DNA of 64,000 nucleotides from Caenimonas sedimenti (GTDB taxonomy: Bacteria; Pseudomonadota; Gammaproteobacteria; Burkholderiales; Burkholderiaceae_C). The position numbers and the translations under genes were made by a program. Where the stretch lies: assembly GCF_007833165.1 (NCBI RefSeq), contig NZ_VOBQ01000009.1, positions 124,001-188,000 of the forward strand, read 5' to 3'. Each line of letters begins with the position of its first letter. Positions within the stretch are counted from its first letter, which is position 1. Shown in pieces: positions 48,605 to 60,575 of this stretch. The notes under the pieces are model-generated. The model was given only the letters and a program-made list of their open reading frames with translations, ran no database searches and was not told the origin of the DNA.

Positions 48605-48677
48605 ATGACGAAACGTCGCGCGAGCACCTTCTCAACTGCTGCAAATAAAGCGACAATTGGCGCCTTCATTGCATCAT

Positions 48678-49277
48678 ATGAGCCTCGCAACCATCCTCTT
48701 CCCCGAGTACCGGCGGCGCGTGCTCGGCCTCTTGCTGCTGCGCCCGGAAGAGGCCCTCCACGGCCGCGAAATCTCGCGTCGCACCGGCCTGCCCGCCGGC
48801 ACCATCACGCGCGAGCTGACCAAGCTGGCCGAGGTGGGGCTGCTAAATCGCGACACGCGCGGCAACCAACGCGTGTACAGCGCCAACACCGCCTCGCCCG
48901 TCTTCAAGGAGCTGGCCAGCATCCTGCGCAAGACCTCTGGCATGGCCGACGTGCTGGCACAAGCCCTGGAGCCGCTGGCGGCTTCACTGCAAGTCGCGTT
49001 CGTGTTCGGCTCGATGGCGCGGGGCCAGGAGACGGCGGGCAGCGACATCGACATGATGATCGTAGGCGACACCGGCTTCCGCCGGATCGTGGAAGCTTTG
49101 CACCCCACCGAAGCAGTGCTGGGCCGGGAGATCAACGCCAAGATCCTGTCGCCGCTGGAATTCGCCGACAAGGCAAACCAGAAAGACGCCTTCCTGGCCG
49201 ATGTGCTGGCCAAGCCCAAGATCTTCCTCATCGGAGGCGAAGATGACCTTGAAGAACTTGCTGGGCATCAGCCTTGA
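48678..49277 (+). CDS. Winged-helix/MNT nucleotidyltransferase (antitoxin of a HEPN-MNT pair)
   Basis: This 199-residue protein combines an N-terminal winged helix (residues about 10-75, HGREISRRTGLPAGTITRELTKLAEVGLLNRDTRGNQRVY) with a minimal nucleotidyltransferase domain. The catalytic motif GSMARGQETAGSDIDMMIVG is at 111-130 with both Asp residues intact. MNT antitoxins can AMPylate their HEPN partner; the fused DNA-binding domain would also allow autoregulation at the upstream half-sites. Its last 35 bp overlap the HEPN gene. Confidence 0.85.
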   Translation: MSLATILFPEYRRRVLGLLLLRPEEALHGREISRRTGLPAGTITRELTKLAEVGLLNRDTRGNQRVYSANTASPVFKELASILRKTSGMADVLAQALEPLAASLQVAFVFGSMARGQETAGSDIDMMIVGDTGFRRIVEALHPTEAVLGREINAKILSPLEFADKANQKDAFLADVLAKPKIFLIGGEDDLEELAGHQP

Positions 49278-49680
49278 TGCCGTCCAGCCAGACAAGGCGC
49301 AGATCGCCAAGCTGCTGGCGGCCGCGCAACGGAACATTGCGGACGCGCAGCTGCCGGGGCTGAGCACCGAGAACCGCTTCGATGCGGCCTACAAGGCCAT
49401 CATGCAACTGGCGATGGCCGCGCTGCATGCCAACGGCTACCGCACGCTCACCAGCAAGCCCGGCCACCACCAGACCGCGATCCAGACTTTGCCCAGCTCC
49501 ATCGGCCTGGAGAACGCCAAGGTGATCGTGCTTGACGCGCTGCGCAAGCAGCGCAACCTGGCGGACTACTCCGGCGACCTGGTGCCTGAAGCGGCGGCCG
49601 TCGAGGCGCTGCAAAGTGCAAGGGACTTGCAGGACCACGTGCGCGCCTGGCTGCAAGGCCACCGCTCCGACCTGCTTTGA
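49243..49680 (+). CDS. HEPN-domain protein (predicted ribonuclease toxin)
   Basis: This 145-residue all-helical HEPN protein has FDAAYKAIMQLAMAALHANGY and LDALRKQRNLADYSGD. The latter is where HEPN ribonucleases carry an R-x4-6-H motif; here it reads RNLADY, so the usual His is replaced by Tyr. It overlaps the MNT gene by 35 bp. A rearranged fragment of a second copy, lacking 13 codons, occurs at 54254-54375. It may be a toxin whose activity is blocked by the MNT partner. Confidence 0.8.
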   Translation: MTLKNLLGISLDAVQPDKAQIAKLLAAAQRNIADAQLPGLSTENRFDAAYKAIMQLAMAALHANGYRTLTSKPGHHQTAIQTLPSSIGLENAKVIVLDALRKQRNLADYSGDLVPEAAAVEALQSARDLQDHVRAWLQGHRSDLL

Positions 49681-49692
49681 GGAACGCGACCC

Positions 49693-50652
49693 ATGGGCGA
49701 TGAAGAAACCATCGGCATCGTCGGCCTGGGCTTGGTCGGCCAGGCGCTGGGCGCGCGTCTGCGCGCCGCCGACCTGCGCACGCTGGGCTACGACCGCAGT
49801 GCGGAGGCGATGGCGGCCTTCGCGCAGGCGGGCGGCGAGGCCGCCAATTCACTCGCGGAGCTGGGCGCGCGGGTGCGCACGGTGCTGCTGGCCGTCTTCG
49901 ACACGCAGGGGGTCCTGGAGGTGGTGGAGGGTGAGGGTGGGCTGCTCTGCCCCGTCATTCCCGCGAAGGCGGGAATCCAGGGCTCCCCAGAAAAGGATGT
50001 CATCCCAGCGAAGGCTGGGATCCAGGAGGTCTCAGTCCACCGCATCATCGACTGCAGCACCGGCGACCCCGCGCAGCTCGAAGCTCTCAACGAGCGCCTG
50101 AAGCAGCAAGGCATCACCTTCATCGAATCCCCCCTCTCCGGCTCCAGCCAGCAAATCGCCGCCGGCGAAGCCACCGCCCTGGTCGGCGCCGAAGACGCAG
50201 CCTGGCAGTCAGCCCAACCGCTACTGGCCCTACTCGCCGCCCAGTGCATCCACGCAGGCCCTCCCGGCATGGGCGCCAAGGCCAAGCTGGCGACCAACCT
50301 GGTGCTGGGCCTGAACCGCGCGGTGTTCGCGGAAGGCCTGGTGTTCGCCGAGAGCCAGGGGATTGCGCCGCAGAAGTTCCTGGAGCTGGTGCTGGCGACG
50401 CCGGCGCGGTCGGATGCGGCGGCGGTCAAGGGGCCATTGATGGTGAGCGGGGACTTTGCGCCGCGGTCGCGGATCAGGCAGCACTTGAAGGATGTGCGGT
50501 TGATGCTGGACACCGCGGATCGAGCAGGGGTGCAGCTGCCGTTCTCGGACACACACGCGGCGGTGCTCCAGGCAGCCGTCGCCGATGGCCATGGAGACAA
50601 GGACAACGCTGCCATCGTCTTGCAGCTTCGGGCCGCGAAACTGACAGGTTGA
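49693..50652 (+). CDS. NAD(P)-dependent 3-hydroxyisobutyrate dehydrogenase-like oxidoreductase
   Basis: This 319-residue beta-hydroxyacid dehydrogenase has GIVGLGLVGQALGARLRAAD (cofactor), FIESPLSGSSQQIAAGEATALVG (substrate region) and the catalytic Lys in GMGAKAKLATNLVLG. Its first domain carries about 25 extra residues (CPVIPAKAGIQGSPEKDVIPAKAGIQ) encoded by two REP palindromes. These lie in the segment between strand and helix before DCSTGDPA, so the fold could tolerate them. The substrate is unknown. Confidence 0.87.
   Translation: MGDEETIGIVGLGLVGQALGARLRAADLRTLGYDRSAEAMAAFAQAGGEAANSLAELGARVRTVLLAVFDTQGVLEVVEGEGGLLCPVIPAKAGIQGSPEKDVIPAKAGIQEVSVHRIIDCSTGDPAQLEALNERLKQQGITFIESPLSGSSQQIAAGEATALVGAEDAAWQSAQPLLALLAAQCIHAGPPGMGAKAKLATNLVLGLNRAVFAEGLVFAESQGIAPQKFLELVLATPARSDAAAVKGPLMVSGDFAPRSRIRQHLKDVRLMLDTADRAGVQLPFSDTHAAVLQAAVADGHGDKDNAAIVLQLRAAKLTG
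49954..50026. repeat. Two REP palindromes inserted in frame in a coding sequence
   Basis: GTCATTCCCGCGAAGGCGGG followed by AATCCAG, then GTCATCCCAGCGAAGGCTGG followed by GATCCAG. They encode two VIPAKAGIQ peptides separated by GSPEKD. The unit at 2949-2974 is the same family. Confidence 0.9.
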
Positions 50653-50722: not shown

Positions 50723-52090
50723 ATGAAGAGCGCCCTCTTCGTCGACTTCGACAATGTCTTCACATCGCTGCGGCAGCTGCAGCCCGGTGCCGCAGAACGG
50801 TTTGCCCGCCACCCTGACGTGTGGCTCCGGTGGTTGACGGACTCATTGCCTTTGCCAGAACCTCACGACGAGCGCGCGCGACGCCGCGTGCTGGTGAGAA
50901 GGTGCTACCTGAATCCCACCTGGTATCAAAGCTACCGGCATGCTTTCTTGCGCGCCGGCTTTGAAATTGTCGATTGCCCTCCCGTCACCAGCCAAGGCAA
51001 GACGAGCACGGACATTCACCTCGTCCTCGACGCCGTGGATCTGCTGCAGCACGACACTGGGTATGAAGAGTTCATCGTCTTTTCCGCCGACGCCGACTTC
51101 ACACCGCTCCTGCGCAAGCTTCGCCGGCATGACCGTCGGACGACGGTGCTGGCGATTGGATTTCCGTCCGCCGCCTACCAGGCATCGGCAGACATTCTCA
51201 TTCCCGAGCGGCTCTTTGTCGGTGAGGCGCTTTACCCCGCGGCGGTCGCCAGCGACGCGACACCTTCTTCACCGGCGACAGTCGAACCCAAACGCGCCGA
51301 ATCTACCGCGACGAACGGAACCTCATCGGTTGCCAAGGCCCCGGCCTCTGCTCCGACCACGCAGCCGCTTGCCCCACCGCCGAGAGTCTCCAGGCCCGCC
51401 AGCGCCAGCGAGCTGTCCGAAATTGCGCATCTACTCTGGCAGCTGGTGGATGAGTCCCCAGTGGGGCTGAGTGGAGGTCAGGTCGCATCGCGATTGAAGA
51501 CCGACTTCCCGGATTCTCTTGAGAATTGGAACGGTTGCTCCGGCTTCCGCCCATTCTTCACCTCTTTGAACCTGGCCCGCCTGGCATGGGCAAGCGGATC
51601 GGGAGGCCGGCTGCTGGACCCCGCGCGCCATGAGGTGGAAGGGCGGCCGCTGCCAGACGAGCCGGATTCACGCTGGGCAGGAGAAGGGGAAGTCTTTCAG
51701 GTGGTGAAGGAAGTGTGTTCACTCACCAAGGCACCCATGTTCGCCCCGAAGGACATGAGGGAGGTCCTCAAGGCGCTGAGCGTCGACCTGGCAACCACGC
51801 CCTTTCAGCTCAATGTGACTGCCCCCCGGGTTTGCGAGGCCTGCCTCTCGTCCGCCGGATTGCGTGTGCGGCAGCGCGACGTCACTTTTCTCATCCGGGG
51901 CATGCAAATGAACGGGCACGTTTTTGGACAGGGTCAGGACGATGTCGGCACCTTGGGAACCCGCTTGGTCGGGCAAATCCTGTTTCTCTGTACGCGTGAG
52001 CAAATGGTCGTCGACCAAGCTGGTGAGTTGGCAATTCGATACTGGGTCACGGGGGAAAGAGCGGAGACTAAGCCGTCCTTGGAAGAGTGA
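50723..52090 (+). CDS. NYN-domain protein with LOTUS-like region (predicted RNase)
   Basis: This 455-residue protein has an N-terminal NYN/LabA-type nuclease domain. The acidic residues are VDFDN (Asp8, Asp10, Asn11), STDIHLVLDAV (Asp97) and FSADADFTPLL (Asp123, Asp125). A Pro/Ala/Thr-rich linker (about 175-225) follows. A winged-helix segment SELSEIAHLLWQLVDESPVGLSGGQVASRLKTDFPD comes next, resembling OST-HTH/LOTUS domains, and a second similar segment lies near 310-380. LOTUS-NYN combinations are predicted RNA-processing enzymes. It begins the accessory run after the oxidoreductase. Confidence 0.85.
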   Translation: MKSALFVDFDNVFTSLRQLQPGAAERFARHPDVWLRWLTDSLPLPEPHDERARRRVLVRRCYLNPTWYQSYRHAFLRAGFEIVDCPPVTSQGKTSTDIHLVLDAVDLLQHDTGYEEFIVFSADADFTPLLRKLRRHDRRTTVLAIGFPSAAYQASADILIPERLFVGEALYPAAVASDATPSSPATVEPKRAESTATNGTSSVAKAPASAPTTQPLAPPPRVSRPASASELSEIAHLLWQLVDESPVGLSGGQVASRLKTDFPDSLENWNGCSGFRPFFTSLNLARLAWASGSGGRLLDPARHEVEGRPLPDEPDSRWAGEGEVFQVVKEVCSLTKAPMFAPKDMREVLKALSVDLATTPFQLNVTAPRVCEACLSSAGLRVRQRDVTFLIRGMQMNGHVFGQGQDDVGTLGTRLVGQILFLCTREQMVVDQAGELAIRYWVTGERAETKPSLEE

Positions 52091-52667: not shown

Positions 52668-54253
52668 GTGGCAGTATTCCCCCAAGGCAAAACACGAATC
52701 CGAGACCGCATCCGCGGCGGCGAGAAAAAGCTCTTCGAAGCGCTGGCGCGCCACCTCGAGGACGACTACACCGTCTGGCACAACATCCCCATCCTGGGCT
52801 CCAGCCGCGAGCCCGACTTCGTCATCCTGCATCCGCAGCGCGGCCTGCTGATCCTGGAAGTGAAGGATTGGAAGCTGAGCACCCTGCGCGACGCCAACCC
52901 CATGCGCGTGGAGCTGCAGACCGAGCGCGGCCTGGTGGCCGTGGCCCACCCGCTCTCGCAAGCGCGCGGCTACGCGATGGACGTGCACCGCCTGCTGGAA
53001 AAGCACCCCGAGCTGTGCCACCCCGCCGGCCCGCACCAGGGCAAGGTGATCATCCCCTGGGGCTGGGGCGCCGCGCTCACGCACATCAAACGCGCCGACC
53101 TCCCGGACGCTTCCAACTTCGACGCGGTCTTCGAACCCGTCAAAGTGCTGCTGGCCGACGACCTGGCGGACGACGTGGACGCCCTGCGCTTCCAGGAGCG
53201 CCTGTGGGGCATGTTCGTCGTGCACTGGCGGCCCGCGCTCACGCTGCCGCAGCTGGCGCTGGTGCGCGCCCTGCTGTTCCCCGAACTGCGCATTGGCGAA
53301 CAGAAGGCGCTGCCGCTCGATGCGCCCATCCCCGCGCTGGTCGTGCGCGACGTGCTGCAGGTGATGGACCTGCAGCAGGAAGCCATCGCCCGCACGCTGG
53401 GCGAAGGCCACCGGCTGATCCACGGCCCGGCCGGCTCCGGCAAGACGATGCTGCTGGTCTACCGCGCCATCCAGCTGCAGGCGGCGGCGCGGGCCGGCAA
53501 GCCCATCCTCGTGCTTTGCTACAACAAGGCGCTGGCCGATCGCATCGATGCCATCCTGCGGCTGAAGGGCGCCGGCCCGCAAGTGCACGTGCGCACCTTC
53601 CACAGCTGGGCGGCGGAGCTGGTCCGCACCTACCAGCTGGGCCGCGTCGACGGCCCACGGGACAACGCCTTCTACGAAGCGGTGGCGCAGCTTGCTTGCA
53701 ACGGCATCGCGAGCGCCCGCGTGCCCCCGGGCCAATACGCCGCCATGCTGATCGACGAGGCGCACGACCTGGCCGACGCCTGGATCGCCGCGGCGGTGCG
53801 CATGGTGGACCCGGCGACCAAGTCGCTGCTGGTGCTCTACGACGACGCGCAATCCATCTACCAGAAGACGCGGCGCAAGCTGAGTTTTGCCAGGCTGGGC
53901 GTGGAGGCGCGCGGCCGCACCGAGGTGCTGAAGATCAACTACCGCAACACCCGCGAGGTGCTGGCCGTGGCGCTGGAGTGCGCGCGCCCCATCCTGCAGG
54001 CGCGCGAGCTGACGGACGGCGACGAGGTGCCGCTGGTGCTGCCCGATTCAGCCGGCCGCAGCGGGCCAATCCCCATGCTGCGCAAGTTCGCCAGCGTCGA
54101 CGCCGAGCTGCGCTCCGTCAGCGAAACGATCCAGGCGATGCACGCGGAGGGCCGGCGGCTGGGCGAGATGGCCGTGCTGGCGCGCCAGTGGTGGCCGCTG
54201 GAGAAGCTGCAGGCGATGCTGGAGCGCGCGGGCATCGCGGTGATGCAGAGCCT
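52668..54253 (+). pseudogene. NERD-domain/UvrD-type helicase, truncated
   Basis: About 528 codons match the intact helicase at 55694. The NERD nuclease motif is PDFVILHPQRGLLILEVKDW (Asp50, Glu64, Lys66), Walker A HGPAGSGKTMLL, Walker B MLIDEAHD, and INYRNTREVL follows. The similarity ends at GIAVMQS, before motif V (TMHASKGLEF in the partner) and motif VI (YVAATRA). The frame stays open to 55040, but that stretch is out-of-frame HEPN remnant and the antisense of the next gene. It therefore cannot be a working helicase, though the NERD part could still be made. The start is GTG. Confidence 0.82.
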
Positions 54254-54375
54254 AGAACCGTTTCGACGCTGCCTACAAAGCCATCATGCAACTGCCGATG
54301 GCCGCGCTGCACGCCAATGGCTACCGCACGCTCACCAGCAAGTCCATCGGCCTCGAGAGCGCCATTGTGATGCGT
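54254..54375 (+). pseudogene. HEPN gene fragment fused to the truncated helicase
   Basis: Read in the +1 frame relative to the helicase, the DNA gives NRFDAAYKAIMQLPMAALHA through NGYRTLTSKSIGLESA. This is nearly identical to residues 43-92 of the HEPN protein at 49243, except that 13 codons between TSK and SIGLE are absent. The first codon that aligns (GAG in the intact gene) reads TAG here. It marks a recombination point in the island. Confidence 0.88.
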
Positions 54376-54401: not shown

Positions 54402-55544
54402 TCAAGCAATGGCCGAATCTCTCGTGATTCGCACGACCCCATTCCCATCGATCTCCACATGCCGATCCGCGGTGAGCCGCGCGAGTGCCGCTGCCACCTT
54501 CTCCGCTGGTGGCTTGCCACCATCCAGCAGCGACCGCAGCATGCCGAGCAAACGCGCTTGCTTTGTCGGCGGGTGCTTGTGGTTGCGGACGCCCGCCAGC
54601 ACATGCGCGTATTCCTTGTCGGTCACCACGCTGGCGCCCGCTGCTGCGGCCACTGGCAAGGTCTGTTTCGGAGCGACCCGGACCGGCTTGTCGGTAACGA
54701 CGATTGTCGCCTTCGCGGGTGCAGCCTTCTTTGCAGCAGCAGGAGGGGGCTTGGCCGCCGCCTTCTTGGCCGCACCCACCACGGGTGCTGCCACCTTCTT
54801 CGCCGCAGCCTTCTTGGCGGGCGCGGCCTTTGCCGCCGCGGCGCCGACCGCAGGATGCGGGAGGCCGATCAACGCGGCACGAAAGCCCAGCTCCTTCGCG
54901 TGCTCCAGCATCGGCAGGTAGCCTTTGTCGTTCGAGATGACGACGATGCGCGCTTCGGGATGTCTGGAAATGATGTAGCCCATGTACAACGACAGATGGA
55001 AGTCCAGCGCGTTCTTGCCCGGCCGCGTGATCGGCACTAGCGTGCGCCGCTCCCCGAATCCGGTGTGATGCTCCTGCGCCTTCTGGGTCTTGCCATGAAA
55101 CACCCACAGATGGGACGCGTCGGGCACGAGAGCGCGAAGCCTGGCGTCGTTGGGTTGCACGTTTTCCCAATCGATCAGGACGTGCACCTCCTCGACGGCC
55201 GGCCGGGCCGGGCCGGCCAGCACGCCCGGTCGCGTGGGAGGGTTCTTGCTTGCGTTCCGATCGAGCTTCCGATCGACGGCCCGTTGCAAATCGACGCCGC
55301 AGCCATCGGCCAGCTGCAGCATGTTCAGCAGCACTTCCGCCATCTCGTCACCGATGCCTTGCTGCACGACCTTGTCGCGCGTCGCCGCCACGGACTGCTC
55401 CGGTGACATCCAGAGAAAGGTGCGCGCCAACTGGGCCGAGTCCACCATGATCGCCGTGGCGAGGTTCTTGGGCGTATGGAAATGCTCCCAGCCGCGCTCC
55501 GCCGCGAACTGGCGCAAGGTCTTCTGCAGCTGCTCCAGGTCCAT
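54402..55544 (-). CDS. MazG-like/NYN fusion protein with H1-like Lys-Ala linker
   Basis: This 380-residue multidomain protein begins with a MazG-like nucleotide-pyrophosphohydrolase fold (residues 1-100): LRQFAAERGWEHFHTPKNLATAI through LQLADGCGVDLQRAVDRKLDRNASKNP. Some metal-ligand positions are changed (VDSAQLA where EVGELAE-like is usual). An NYN/PIN-like nuclease spans 118-229 with IDWEN (Asp125, Asn128), ALDFHL (Asp181) and ISNDKGY (Asn205, Asp206). Lys/Ala/Pro repeats follow (233-282, AAAKKAAAKP), then a small winged-helix-like end (306-375). The ATG at 55544 has an AGGGAGG site. It lies between the two NERD helicases on the opposite strand. I infer an RNA or nucleotide-targeting role. 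Confidence 0.8.
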   Translation of the reverse strand: MDLEQLQKTLRQFAAERGWEHFHTPKNLATAIMVDSAQLARTFLWMSPEQSVAATRDKVVQQGIGDEMAEVLLNMLQLADGCGVDLQRAVDRKLDRNASKNPPTRPGVLAGPARPAVEEVHVLIDWENVQPNDARLRALVPDASHLWVFHGKTQKAQEHHTGFGERRTLVPITRPGKNALDFHLSLYMGYIISRHPEARIVVISNDKGYLPMLEHAKELGFRAALIGLPHPAVGAAAAKAAPAKKAAAKKVAAPVVGAAKKAAAKPPPAAAKKAAPAKATIVVTDKPVRVAPKQTLPVAAAAGASVVTDKEYAHVLAGVRNHKHPPTKQARLLGMLRSLLDGGKPPAEKVAAALARLTADRHVEIDGNGVVRITRDSAIA

Positions 55545-55693: not shown

Positions 55694-57505
55694 GTGGCTG
55701 TACTCATTCCCGCATTCGGATCCTGTAGGTTCGATTCGACCGGCGAGCGGCGCCTGGCGGAGCGTCTGGAACAAAAGCTCGACGACGATTACTTGCTTTG
55801 GCACAACGTGCCCATCGGGCCAAAGCAGACGCATCCCGATTTCGTCATCATCCATCCGCGCCGTGGCGCGCTGATCCTGGAGACGAAGGACTGGCATCTC
55901 GAGACAATTCGAAGTGCCACCCGTCAGCGGTTCGACATCGCGCCCGATGGCATTCCAAAGACGGTGATCAATCCGCTGGCGCAAGCGCGGCACTGCGCCA
56001 TCCAAGTGATCGACGCGCTGCAGCGCGACAAGCAACTCATTCATGCCGAAGGGCCGCACCAGGGCAAGTTGATCTTTCCCTGGGGACACGGCGTTGTCTT
56101 CACACGCATCACGCGCAGGCAGTTCGATGCGGCCGGTCTCGGCGAAGCGATCGAACCGCATCTCGTCATCTGCCAAGATGAAATGCTGGAATCCGTGGAG
56201 CCCGAAGCCTTCCAGCAACGGCTGTGGGACATGTTTCCCCATGCCTTCGGCAAAGTCCTTTCACTTCCGCAACTGGATCGGGTCCGGTGGATCATGTTTC
56301 CGGAAGTCCGGGTCGTCTCACAAGGGGGTCTGTTCGACAACGATGCCAGCGTCGAGGCTGAACTCCCCGACATCATGCGGGTCATGGACCTCCAACAGGA
56401 GCAGCTGGCCCGCAGCCTGGGCGACGGTCATCGCGTCATCCATGGCGTGGCGGGCTCCGGCAAGACCATGATCCTGGGCTACCGCGCGCTGCAGCTGGCG
56501 CAGGCGGCGGCGGCCAAACCGGTCTTGGTCCTTTGTTACAACGAGCCGCTGGCCGTGAAGCTGGCCGCCATGATGGACGCCAAGGGGTTGCAGGATCGCG
56601 TGCACGTGCGCAACTTCCACAAGTGGTGCCGACAGCAGCTCGTCGCGTATGGTCAGCCGGTGCCGCCACAGGGCCCACGTATGTTCGACAAGATGGTCGA
56701 GAACGTCATCCAGGCAGTTGACCGCAAGCAGGTCCCGTCTGGCCAGTACATGGCGGTGCTGATCGACGAAGGCCACGATTTCCAGCCGGAATGGTTCAAG
56801 CTCGTGGTCCAGATGGTGGATCCCACCACCAACAGCTTGCTCGTGCTGTACGACAGCGCGCAGAGCATCTACGAGAAGGCGGGAAAGAAGCGCGGCTTCA
56901 GCTTCAAGAGCCTTGGCATCCAGGCTCAGGGCCGCACGACCATCTTGAAGATCAACTATCGCAATACGCGGCAGATCCTGGACCTGGCCAGCAAAGTGGC
57001 GGCGGGCGTGCTGCAACCTGACGCGGCGGACGAAGACGGCACACCGCTCTTGCATCCGATCAGCTGTGGCCGCGACGGCCAAGCACCCATGGTGATTCGC
57101 CTACCGTCCGTGAAGGACGAACTGCGAACCATCCGTGAACTGCTGACCAACGCCCATGCCGAAGGGCACGCCTGGGGCGACATGGCCGTCCTGTGCCGCC
57201 GCCACGAGATGATGGACGAATGCGCGCGGGAGTTGGCCCGTAACGGTGTCCCGCACCAAGTGAGGCACCGCTCTGGAGACTTCCGCCCGTTGGATGACAC
57301 CGTCAAGGTCATGACAATGCACGCGAGCAAAGGACTTGAGTTCCCGGTCGTGGCGCTCCCTGGTGTTGGACAGCTCCCGGAAGCGAATGAGGACGCGCAA
57401 GAGGAAGCGCGAGTTTTCTATGTCGCCGCGACTCGGGCGACCCACCGACTGATCGTGACGGCTAGCGGAACGGGTGCTTTCGGCGAGATGCTGTCACCCC
57501 CATAA
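55694..57505 (+). CDS. NERD-domain UvrD/REP-type helicase, intact
   Basis: This 603-residue superfamily 1 helicase has an N-terminal NERD nuclease-like domain (about 14-130, DFVIIHPRRGALILETKDW with Asp49, Glu63, Lys65). Walker A is GVAGSGKTM (251-259) and Walker B is VLIDEGHD. INYRNTRQIL, the motif V region TMHASKGLEFPVVALPG and motif VI ARVFYVAATRATHRL complete the set. NERD-helicase proteins are found in defence islands and in the Nhi anti-phage system; a similar role is inferred here. The start is GTG. It is 148 bp from, and divergent to, the MazG-NYN gene. Confidence 0.9.
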   Translation: MAVLIPAFGSCRFDSTGERRLAERLEQKLDDDYLLWHNVPIGPKQTHPDFVIIHPRRGALILETKDWHLETIRSATRQRFDIAPDGIPKTVINPLAQARHCAIQVIDALQRDKQLIHAEGPHQGKLIFPWGHGVVFTRITRRQFDAAGLGEAIEPHLVICQDEMLESVEPEAFQQRLWDMFPHAFGKVLSLPQLDRVRWIMFPEVRVVSQGGLFDNDASVEAELPDIMRVMDLQQEQLARSLGDGHRVIHGVAGSGKTMILGYRALQLAQAAAAKPVLVLCYNEPLAVKLAAMMDAKGLQDRVHVRNFHKWCRQQLVAYGQPVPPQGPRMFDKMVENVIQAVDRKQVPSGQYMAVLIDEGHDFQPEWFKLVVQMVDPTTNSLLVLYDSAQSIYEKAGKKRGFSFKSLGIQAQGRTTILKINYRNTRQILDLASKVAAGVLQPDAADEDGTPLLHPISCGRDGQAPMVIRLPSVKDELRTIRELLTNAHAEGHAWGDMAVLCRRHEMMDECARELARNGVPHQVRHRSGDFRPLDDTVKVMTMHASKGLEFPVVALPGVGQLPEANEDAQEEARVFYVAATRATHRLIVTASGTGAFGEMLSPP

Positions 57506-57571: not shown

Positions 57572-59551
57572 TCATGCAAGCACGGGAAAGCCCATACCAG
57601 AAAGGTAGTTGAAAGTGCCGTCGTAGAAGAGTGCAGATCTCGTTGCGTCACTCTCGTCGCCTTCAGGAACAACAATGACCATCCCTTGACGCGCTCGAGT
57701 TAGCAGGACCCGATAGGCATTCTTTTGAAACCCCCGACGCTCCTGCGCCAGAATTCGCTGCCATCTCGAGCCCACAAACGAATGGTGTTCCCAGGATGAG
57801 CCGTTGTGCCGAAAGTCGCCGTCCCACACCACACAAGTCCAATCCAGCTCCAACCCCTGGACATGAAATTCCGTCGCTACGTCTTCAAGATAATACGAAG
57901 AACGCACATCGTCTTTGTCGTGCAAGAACCAGTGAACAGGGTCAACGGGCGCCTTCACGTGAATGGCATGTGGCCTGAGCCTCTGGGCCTGCGACGACAC
58001 AACGATACCGTAACGCTCGGACCCTCTGGCTTGCTCCCGGATCCACGCCCTTGCTCGAGGGACACTACGGCAAAGCATGATCGGGTACCGATCCTGAAGT
58101 GAAAGGAACATTTCACGCGCGCCCGGGCCGTCCAAGTCCAAGAGCTTCTTAACCAGGGTCGAGAGATGTTCGGCGCGAAACGAGCGCACGGACACCGCCA
58201 AATGCAAGTCATTGTCGGCATGAAGTAGCGCGTGCCTGGTTGCCTCTTTCAGCGTATCTCGCGCCGCGTATTCATTTCCTTCAAGCTCCGGAGAGATGTG
58301 GATATGCCAGTGGGGAAACGACCGGCGGACGGCATGCACCCATTCGCTGATTCCAGCCTCACCGGTGTTGATCTCTTGGCCGCCCCCAACCAGACAAACC
58401 ACCACAGCCCAATCCTTGTGCCTGTCGAGACAGGAAATGAGGAATTCAGGCTCAGATTGAGAGAAACCCGGCCTGTTCTTCTTGCGCTGCATGAACGAAG
58501 CTGTTTGCTCAAGATTCCAAGCGCGCTGGGCCTCGTCAAATACTGCAATGTGATCCGAGGGAGCACCTCCATCGCGTAGGTACTCGTCGCGAAAGTGATG
58601 AACATTTTGAATGAAGGCCTTGACTCGGCTCTTGGCCTCGGTCTTTCGGAGGGTACCTCCCACCTCACTGGCGCGCCGAACCTGATCGCGAGCCAAAGCC
58701 TCCTGCATGACAGCGACGAGAGGGCCATTGCCAGAAAGGAAGACGCTGTGCAGTTCACCCTTCTCCGCGTGCTTCGTGGCGATGTTGAGGCCAACGAGTG
58801 TCTTGCCTGCACCAGGGACACCCGTCACGAAGCAGATGGCCTTTGTCCCGCCGGCGCGGCAGTCGCTGACGATCTTCTCGATGGCGGCAGACGTCGCCGT
58901 GAGGTTCTTGACGCCAGCGTCACTCCGCGAGATCTCCGCGACGCCATGTTCGGCGTAGAGCGCCATTGCGGCCTCGATGATGGTCGGGGTCGGCTTGTAT
59001 CGACCTGCTTCCCACTCTTCTGCGCAAATCTGTTCTGGAGCTGCCCATTCGAGTACTGCCCGCAATGCCAATGGAAGGGTACGCTCGTTCGTGAGCAAGG
59101 GTCGAAAAACCCCATCATCAATAGCGCTCTTCTCAGGTTTGATAAGACCGTCGGGCGCGGCGGTGGCGACTAGGACAGGGACAAGAACCTTGTCATGGGA
59201 TGATTCGTGGAAGTTCTTCAGATCCAACGCATAGTCCCATACCTGGTCCCGCGCGTGCCCGGTAAATCGCTGGTCTCCTACCTTGAACTCCAGCAGGAAC
59301 AAAGTGGAGCGGATCAGTGCGACGACATCGATGCGCTTTCCGAGGCGAGGAACGGCGTACTCAAAGTACACATTGCCTTGCCCGGAATAAGGAACGAGCA
59401 ACTGCTGGAGGATTCGAACCTGCTCCTGCCACGCGAATCGCTGCGGGAGTTCAACGGAGAACTCCGAAGACGTAAGCAGGATTCCAAGTACGTGATCTGG
59501 GTGCCGCTGCAGGAATGCTTCGATTGAGTCCGAGTAGTAGGCGCGACTCAT
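57572..59551 (-). CDS. DUF2075 P-loop helicase with N-terminal PD-(D/E)xK-like segment
   Basis: This 659-residue protein has an N-terminal nuclease-like core RIDVVALIRSTLFLLEFKVG (Asp75, Glu88, Lys90) preceded by YFEYAVPRLGK. A DUF2075/Schlafen-type ATPase follows with Walker A TGVPGAGKTLVGLN (243 onward), Walker B HIAVFDEAQRAW and CLVGGGQEI. The end is VLLTRARQGMVIVVPEG (motif VI-like arginine). Such fusions are frequent in defence regions. The ATG at 59551 starts at the conserved domain. It is 61 bp downstream of the HNH gene on the same strand. Base composition is lower in GC than the neighbouring housekeeping genes. Confidence 0.87.
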   Translation of the reverse strand: MSRAYYSDSIEAFLQRHPDHVLGILLTSSEFSVELPQRFAWQEQVRILQQLLVPYSGQGNVYFEYAVPRLGKRIDVVALIRSTLFLLEFKVGDQRFTGHARDQVWDYALDLKNFHESSHDKVLVPVLVATAAPDGLIKPEKSAIDDGVFRPLLTNERTLPLALRAVLEWAAPEQICAEEWEAGRYKPTPTIIEAAMALYAEHGVAEISRSDAGVKNLTATSAAIEKIVSDCRAGGTKAICFVTGVPGAGKTLVGLNIATKHAEKGELHSVFLSGNGPLVAVMQEALARDQVRRASEVGGTLRKTEAKSRVKAFIQNVHHFRDEYLRDGGAPSDHIAVFDEAQRAWNLEQTASFMQRKKNRPGFSQSEPEFLISCLDRHKDWAVVVCLVGGGQEINTGEAGISEWVHAVRRSFPHWHIHISPELEGNEYAARDTLKEATRHALLHADNDLHLAVSVRSFRAEHLSTLVKKLLDLDGPGAREMFLSLQDRYPIMLCRSVPRARAWIREQARGSERYGIVVSSQAQRLRPHAIHVKAPVDPVHWFLHDKDDVRSSYYLEDVATEFHVQGLELDWTCVVWDGDFRHNGSSWEHHSFVGSRWQRILAQERRGFQKNAYRVLLTRARQGMVIVVPEGDESDATRSALFYDGTFNYLSGMGFPVLA

Positions 59552-59612
59552 ATGATCAATGCCAACCACGTTTAGGCTCGATTCGGCTCCGCATCTTGGC
59601 TCCGTGATCTGG

Positions 59613-60575
59613 CTAGGGCGAGTTAGGGAATGGTCGCAGTCTTTTGATCCGCCACTCAAGCGATTCTCGCTTAGGCGTGAATCGCGGCTCACGAGGAAGG
59701 ATGATAGGCCTGCCTTCCAACCCCACCAGGAGCGCGAAATCTGGCACGCGGCTGTCAAGCGTCGTACTAACGTGCCAGTTCAGATCCGGGCCGGGTGCGA
59801 TCAGCCGCTTGTCCATGGCCCAATGCATATCAGGACAGAGTGCCAATCCGTTCCGAGGGTCGTCGTCGCCTGCTTCGCTAAACGGGTGGATGTGTGCCGC
59901 CTCCACCATGGCCTCCCCGGTCGACAACACTATGCGCACCCCAGTTGCTGCGCAGCGATAGTCGTACACCTCTGTTACCAATCTGCGGAAGGCGGGGCTG
60001 CGAACGTATTCCGGTGGTGGCCCTTCACTTGCGATCACTGTTTCAGTTCGAAGTTGACGCTCATAGGTGCTCGCTTGAGCGCTGACGGACGCTACGACCC
60101 GCAGCTCCTGTAGCCCCCGATCGAGCCAGTGAGTCGCGACGCTCTCACCCAGCGCATCCAAACAGACGGGATCTTGGAGCAGTGCGAACAGCTCTTGATC
60201 CAGCTCGGCGTACGCGATGTTCTCGGTGATATCCCCAAGGCTACGGGCAGTACTCATCGCTCGAACGACGTCCTCTCGGCCTGGCAATGGCCGCAAGTGC
60301 CAAAAGCTCGGCTGACCGCCGCGCAAGTTTCCACTCAAATGGAAAAATGGAAAGTAGGGATTCGCGTGATCACCGGGCGTGCGAACTGCGCTGAAGAACT
60401 GGTGATAGCGCTCCAATAGCGGCGGAGCGAAGTAGATCCGGTTTGCACGCACGCCACCAGCACGCGCCAAATCGAGCAGCGCGAGCAGCATGCAAATCTT
60501 ATGAGGGCTGGCCCGACCGCCAGCCATATTGACGACGAGGCGCTTGAACTTGTCCTGATACTCAGCCAAGCTCAC
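59613..60575 (-). CDS. HNH endonuclease with ScoMcrA-type N-domain (putative modification-dependent restriction enzyme)
   Basis: This 320-residue protein has an N-terminal domain (1-100: RLVVNMAGGRASPHKICMLLALLDLARAG and NPYFPFFHLSGN.FWHLRPLPG). It resembles the sulfur/modified-DNA-binding heads of ScoMcrA-type enzymes. The C-terminal HNH_2 motif is YDYRCAATG, VEAAHIHPFSEAGDDDPRNGLALCPDMHWAMDKRL (His228, His230, Asn242, His251). It should cut DNA carrying a foreign modification such as phosphorothioate; the modification is inferred. The GTG start at 60575 is 9 bp after the gyrB stop, and no ribosome site is visible, so translation may depend on gyrB. Confidence 0.82.
   Translation of the reverse strand: MSLAEYQDKFKRLVVNMAGGRASPHKICMLLALLDLARAGGVRANRIYFAPPLLERYHQFFSAVRTPGDHANPYFPFFHLSGNLRGGQPSFWHLRPLPGREDVVRAMSTARSLGDITENIAYAELDQELFALLQDPVCLDALGESVATHWLDRGLQELRVVASVSAQASTYERQLRTETVIASEGPPPEYVRSPAFRRLVTEVYDYRCAATGVRIVLSTGEAMVEAAHIHPFSEAGDDDPRNGLALCPDMHWAMDKRLIAPGPDLNWHVSTTLDSRVPDFALLVGLEGRPIILPREPRFTPKRESLEWRIKRLRPFPNSP

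Follow-up and report, generated by a model that had tools for sequence, protein, structure and literature searches.

In the 64,000-nucleotide stretch of Caenimonas sedimenti DNA analysed here (hereafter the window), one gene appears to join a nucleotide pyrophosphatase-like domain to a ribonuclease-like domain, which raises the question of what the two are doing in one protein, and with which neighbours. Read from the translated frame, the layout is a four-part one, with MazG, PIN7, a linker and a winged-helix-like (wHTH) end in a single chain (Table 1), and the gene starts with an ATG at 55544 with AGGGAGG upstream. All four parts had been named in a preliminary description of this DNA, and all four were recovered here. 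The MazG-like N-domain scores 29.6 bits with the Pfam MazG-like profile (cut-off 27), and phmmer against PDB sequences aligned residues 3-102 without a gap to RS21-C6/dCTP pyrophosphatase 1 (E 6.6e-14 with the full protein as query, 4.8e-15 with just this domain), which makes this part a homologous helical MazG domain of the all-alpha NTP pyrophosphatases (RS21-C6/DCTPP1 group). The nuclease core with its acidic residues is matched far better by Pfam PIN7 (PF18475; 90.3 bits, cut-off 34, E 1.5e-25) than by Pfam NYN, which is just over threshold (25.4 bits, cut-off 24.2). The Lys/Ala/Pro repeat comprises 31 Ala, 13 Lys and 10 Pro among the 76 residues from 230 to 305, and the last ~70 residues are predicted to form three helices and two strands (block pLDDT 80-87). 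The MazG part (0.86) and the PIN part (0.83) have a high third-position GC, as for coding DNA of such GC; the values for the linker (0.72) and the wHTH (0.73) do not exceed first-position GC and are uninformative for these two parts. PADLOC gave no significant match to the fusion protein (best E 0.037, Cas8c), and in PHROGs it matched a pyrophosphatase family (5e-10) and, weakly (0.075), one unknown.

Table 1 Features of the fusion gene and of the two helicase genes that flank it (positions in the window).
Feature	Position	Strand	Basis
MazG-PIN7-linker-wHTH fusion gene, 380 aa	54402..55544	-	ORF, Pfam, phmmer vs PDB, alignment
RS21-C6/DCTPP1-type MazG domain, residues 1-103, degenerate metal site (D35, Q38, E67, E70, N74)	55236..55544	-	
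PIN7/NYN nuclease domain, residues 119-229	54858..55190	-	Pfam, alignment, model
Lys/Ala/Pro-rich linker, residues 230-305, mostly pLDDT <50	54630..54857	-	
Small winged-helix-like domain, residues 306-380, also in MazG-less PIN7 proteins	54405..54629	-	
Intact NERD-UvrD helicase, divergent neighbour, PADLOC C3a187; judged to lie outside any conserved module	55694..57505	+	
NERD-UvrD helicase with shortened end, neighbour; stops at partial HEPN-gene copy (54251-54365)	52668..54250	+	

A full-length model from two sequences was poor (mean pLDDT 52.6, about 40 in MazG), and a model of residues 105-380 from seven sequences reached a mean of 70.2, with PIN blocks at 81-90 except one of 58 and the wHTH at 80-87. 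In it, a domain of alternating beta and alpha elements is followed by a linker of low confidence and then by three helices with two strands. With both models, Foldseek against the PDB returned nothing below E 0.001, the best being Cam1 (0.0018); matches to Csm6/Cam1 and to DtxR-type regulators, all at E >0.001, were set aside as generic fold likeness, and the NYN domain of MARF1 (5yaa) was matched weakly (TM 0.51 by target, E 0.045). When the PIN part of the window copy was searched as a single sequence against the PDB, no solved relative was found, and its matches to designed "Cake" proteins were rejected as chance sums of weak repeats. The C-terminal domain had no credible match in Pfam, where the only match at E up to 1 was Cas_Csd1 (0.27).

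How far does this arrangement extend beyond the window? A protein of Aquabacterium humicola (L037) has the same four parts and is 61% identical over residues 1-228. A search profile made from these two proteins was applied to 399 family genomes, among them the window's own, and detected 28 further full-length fusions in 27 of the 398 other genomes, with one fusion taken as L037's own contig and two held by G446. MazG and PIN7 lie in a single open frame in 29 of 29 fusions, the first 27 residues being unmatched in one of them (G245/L083). With 28 further examples, the MazG-PIN7 fusion is genuine. At a cut-off of E 1e-40, 399 genomes sampled across the order yielded one further fusion, from another family (G808), and 398 sampled across the phylum yielded none besides the window's. 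Since 36 other genomes of the same genus gave no full-length match, the fusion gene looks accessory within the genus.

The C-terminal domain bears on how the fusion arose. Its profile was found in 27 of the 29 fusions at independent E <0.01, the other two (L072 and L091) being cut by contig ends, and in nine of 11 other PIN7 loci (L098-L108; not found in L106 and L108, and detected only at 0.001-0.004 in L103 and L107). Proteins of viral contigs (L118, L120-L123) align across both the PIN7 and the C-terminal domains. Because this domain is common to PIN7 proteins that have no MazG, it was probably a PIN7-linker-wHTH nuclease that gained an N-terminal MazG, in one or more events and perhaps with later splits. 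In the tree, the fused MazG domains grouped, with support of 98, with six stand-alone rows from four genomes, and no clade united all the fusions to the exclusion of other rows. An alignment combining MazG-only with PIN-only rows came out misaligned and was discarded. The L092-L094 fusions carry two C-terminal winged-helix-like matches instead of one.

We then come to the metal site of MazG, where the pattern of active enzymes, E-x-x-E ... E-x-x-D, reads D35, Q38, E67 and E70 in the window copy. That expected glutamates are lost here had been proposed from the window protein itself, and an alignment of 29 rows, the window and 28 relatives, bears it out as E35D, E38Q and D70E. Position 35 is Glu in all 28 relatives, position 38 Glu in 27, position 67 Glu in 27 as in the window copy, position 70 Asp in all 28, and position 74, which is Asn in the window copy, Tyr in 27. 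These five positions correspond, in a pairwise alignment, to 63, 66, 95, 98 and 102 of mouse RS21-C6, of which we take 63, 66 and 95 to be metal ligands; in that numbering the window changes are E63D, E66Q, D98E and Y102N. Mtb-MazG is described in PMC10014863 as binding Mg2+ via Glu119, Glu122, Glu138 and Asp141, with activity that needs both Mg2+ and the dimer. The four ligands are all intact in 26 of the 28 relatives, and a ligand is lost in three of the 29 fusions, namely the window copy, L081 (E67K) and L091 (E38A). L081, from G302, is a second degenerate MazG site among the fusions, combining E67K with Y74H. Stand-alone MazG rows of a wider alignment (L083 left out; two genes present twice, L067/L096 and L068/L097) have E35, E38 and D70 in 50 of 50, E67 in 49 and an aromatic residue at position 74 in all 50 (48 Tyr, 2 Phe), and the stand-alone MazG of the window's own genome (L203) retains the four acids. 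With three of four metal ligands changed and the conserved pocket Tyr gone, the MazG of the window copy is very probably no pyrophosphatase; some weak hydrolysis may persist, as Asp and Glu are able to bind metal.

At ten positions, which all fall within 32-75 and none in PIN, the window copy departs from residues common to at least 26 of the 28 relatives, and one further departure is the gap column 236, beyond the PIN part. Among 41 conserved MazG columns (L083 again left out) it departs at nine, comprising four of six active-site columns versus five of 35 others, a clustering that is modest (one-sided Fisher p 0.015) with the six active-site columns picked by hand. In the PIN domain, D125, E127, N128, D181, N205 and D206 are invariant in all 29 fusions, and we infer from the alignment that selection has probably retained the nuclease site while the MazG site decayed. 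By mean identity, L081 and the window copy are the fusions in which MazG is most diverged relative to PIN. This neat picture of PIN kept and MazG lost is tempered by the joint tree, because no PIN tip is longer than that of the window copy (0.41), whose PIN part has thus evolved fast outside the active site as well; the MazG tip of the window copy (0.63) comes second to that of L081. Long branches in both domains could also mean that the gene is on its way out, with MazG decaying under relaxed selection as the whole accessory region decays, and the gene does adjoin a shortened helicase and a partial HEPN copy. However, the frame contains no stop, the start has a ribosome-binding site, the PIN residues are all retained and third-position GC is of coding type in the MazG and PIN parts, and we consider such decay quite unlikely.

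We lean instead, with modest confidence, towards an accessory PIN7-wHTH ribonuclease to which a MazG bundle has been added, the bundle being retained in the window copy as a scaffold or ligand pocket. The wHTH in 27 of 29 fusions, the PIN acids in 29 of 29 and the MazG ligand loss in three of 29 are consistent with this reading. The PIN7 domain would cut RNA using a divalent metal, RNA rather than DNA being suggested by analogy; PMC11346440 describes a CRISPR-associated NYN protein that cuts ssRNA and depends on Mn2+ to do so. The basic tail and the wHTH would hold the nuclease on RNA, and the helical bundle of MazG may multimerise it, MazG enzymes being described as dimers or tetramers (PMC10014863). 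In most relatives the MazG domain would probably hydrolyse (d)NTPs as well, and in the window copy it would hydrolyse nothing and act as a scaffold, a ligand pocket being the most it could still provide.

A more elaborate possibility is that the degenerate pocket binds nucleotide without hydrolysing it and gates the nuclease, making a nucleotide-responsive ribonuclease. The MazG frame is open with a coding-type third-position GC of 0.86, E67 and N97 are retained, and N97 aligns to Asn125 of RS21-C6, which is equated in PMC2954211 with a sugar-recognising Asn of the C. jejuni dUTPase. The same pocket has nevertheless lost two other putative sugar contacts. In RS21-C6, Asp98 makes a water-mediated contact with the sugar (PMC2954211); it aligns to and is replaced by E70, and position 74, by our reading, is a site of aromatic stacking on the sugar, an analogy with Tyr102/Phe103 of another protein in that text. 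A scaffold role would fit the ligand loss in three of 29 fusions just as well as a sensor role does, and we regard nucleotide gating as unlikely. Slightly less likely still is the broader proposal of an RNase family wired to a nucleotide pyrophosphatase, with nucleotide state controlling RNA decay and the window copy a pure sensor that has lost catalysis. If this broader proposal were true, intact and dead MazG would form a natural pair separating clearing from sensing.

Four groups of known proteins resemble the fusion. RS21-C6/DCTPP1 shares the ungapped MazG homology described above; the window protein differs from it by the replacement of three of four ligands and the pocket Tyr and by the fused nuclease. 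PIN7-wHTH proteins of same-family genomes and viral contigs share the PIN7 core, the NALDFH and S-N/K-D motifs and the C-terminal domain, but they have no MazG, and in the viral examples the linker is short. Ribonucleases of the NYN type, for example MARF1 and the CRISPR-associated NYN protein, are linked to it by the Pfam NYN score just over the cut-off and by the weak 5yaa fold match, whereas they have other accessory domains and the window protein fits PIN7 far better. LK-nuclease proteins with OST-HTH (LOTUS), as described in PMC2848206, likewise combine a nuclease of the PIN superfamily with a winged-helix domain, but the window protein has no OST-HTH/LOTUS match in Pfam at E up to 1 and has an extra MazG. 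In the open-licence PMC literature, as far as the texts retrieved go, we found no mention of MazG joined to a PIN or NYN nuclease, which is weak evidence of absence. The MazG-PIN7 design is real and little known. By its predicted activities the family couples the clearing of nucleotides to the cutting of RNA within a single chain, and its natural variants with and without MazG catalysis offer a means to ask why the two domains joined.

Does the fusion work with a neighbour? The preliminary description placed the gene between one broken and one intact NERD helicase, which is correct, and went on to propose that the gene and the divergent helicase form a two-gene module for defence or RNA decay. 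In the window the two genes are adjacent and divergent, and the intact helicase matches PADLOC C3a187 at E 3.7e-168. This arrangement did not recur at the other loci surveyed. None of 29 other fusion loci (28 plus L202) has a NERD helicase within flanks of up to about 8 kb on each side, the flank being under 2 kb on at least one side, at contig ends, in seven of the 28 (L072, L076, L082, L084, L085, L087 and L091). In the reverse direction, this NERD helicase turned up in 52 of the 249 other genomes in the sample, and 38 loci from 38 of these 52 genomes had no PIN7 gene beside the helicase and, in one case (G254), a stand-alone MazG. Both genes occur in five genomes (G162, G176, G242, G254 and G271), in G271 with about 280 kb between them and in the others on separate contigs. 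The single case in G254 could be read in favour of a link: at this locus (L168, about 8.3 kb) the MazG gene, with its four acids retained, lies within 100 nt downstream of the helicase. The two-way neighbourhood survey nonetheless largely refutes the module in the DNA covered, and we give it hardly any probability.

We also compared the other neighbours of the fusions, for which 97 open reading frames were picked by a GC-based rule and 83 scanned. No conserved operon partner was seen among the neighbours compared. Those that recurred in the related group L092-L095 (TRAP transporter, ABC exporter) and in the close pairs L079/L080 (P-type ATPase) and L037/L069 (SNF2 protein) were rejected as partners, being shared synteny, and four neighbours of 404 aa (L074, L077, L080 and L083) proved mutually unrelated. 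A further reading gives the nuclease DNA, or nucleic acid bound in the nucleoid, as its substrate and has MazG clear modified dNTPs, which would make an anti-phage system in the relatives with intact MazG. DCTPP1 is indeed reported to hydrolyse dCTP and C5-modified dCTPs (PMC7162842), and when 20 neighbours were rescanned singly the three matches were all AbiE, with AbiEi beside the fusion at L069 and AbiEi and AbiEii beside that at L202. On the other hand, the best 25 of 95 Pfam families among the 83 neighbours are mainly transport, regulatory and metabolic, and among the best 25 of 49 PADLOC families none occurs in more than four neighbours (mad3 in four; LmuA, RTasMBL and Avs1a in two each; the others in one). 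We find an anti-phage role of this kind very improbable, and some further fusions may adjoin defence genes, given the other PADLOC matches (among them mad3, LmuA, PD-T7-1 and a type IV restriction enzyme).

The surroundings of the gene in the window can be placed relative to gyrB, which was recognised by eye and then via its relatives. The DNA up to 18 kb past the gyrB 3' end was surveyed in 20 of the 32 other same-genus genomes with a gyrB match, and in none of the 20 did it contain relatives of the fusion, NERD, MNT, HEPN or NYN genes. A relative of the S41 helicase-like gene lay within 4 kb of gyrB in two of the 20 (L209, and L219 together with HNH), and a distant one (29%) lay at 15.8 kb in L222. 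We infer that the fusion-gene region beyond gyrB is a variable place and a late arrival. In the window itself, 57572-60575 holds the PDC-S41 helicase-like protein and an HNH protein, adjoining gyrB; the HNH protein is related to phosphorothioate-DNA restriction enzymes at 77.5 bits, below the model cut-off of 180. On the other side, an MNT nucleotidyltransferase gene overlaps a HEPN-like gene (PADLOC PDC-M05B, 5.3e-69) at 48657-49680, and a similar MNT/HEPN pair adjoins the PIN7-only gene of L103. A 115-nt part of the HEPN-like gene (49367-49481) recurs as an 85% copy at 54251-54365, at the end of the shortened NERD helicase and adjoining the fusion gene's 3' end. The gene at 50723-52090 encodes another NYN protein (Pfam NYN 1.3e-17), one that has no MazG. 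The open reading frame at 49693-50652 looks dehydrogenase-like by eye and includes a palindromic repeat at 49957-49977, with VIPAKAGIQ read twice; one further copy of this repeat, with one mismatch, is found at 2952.
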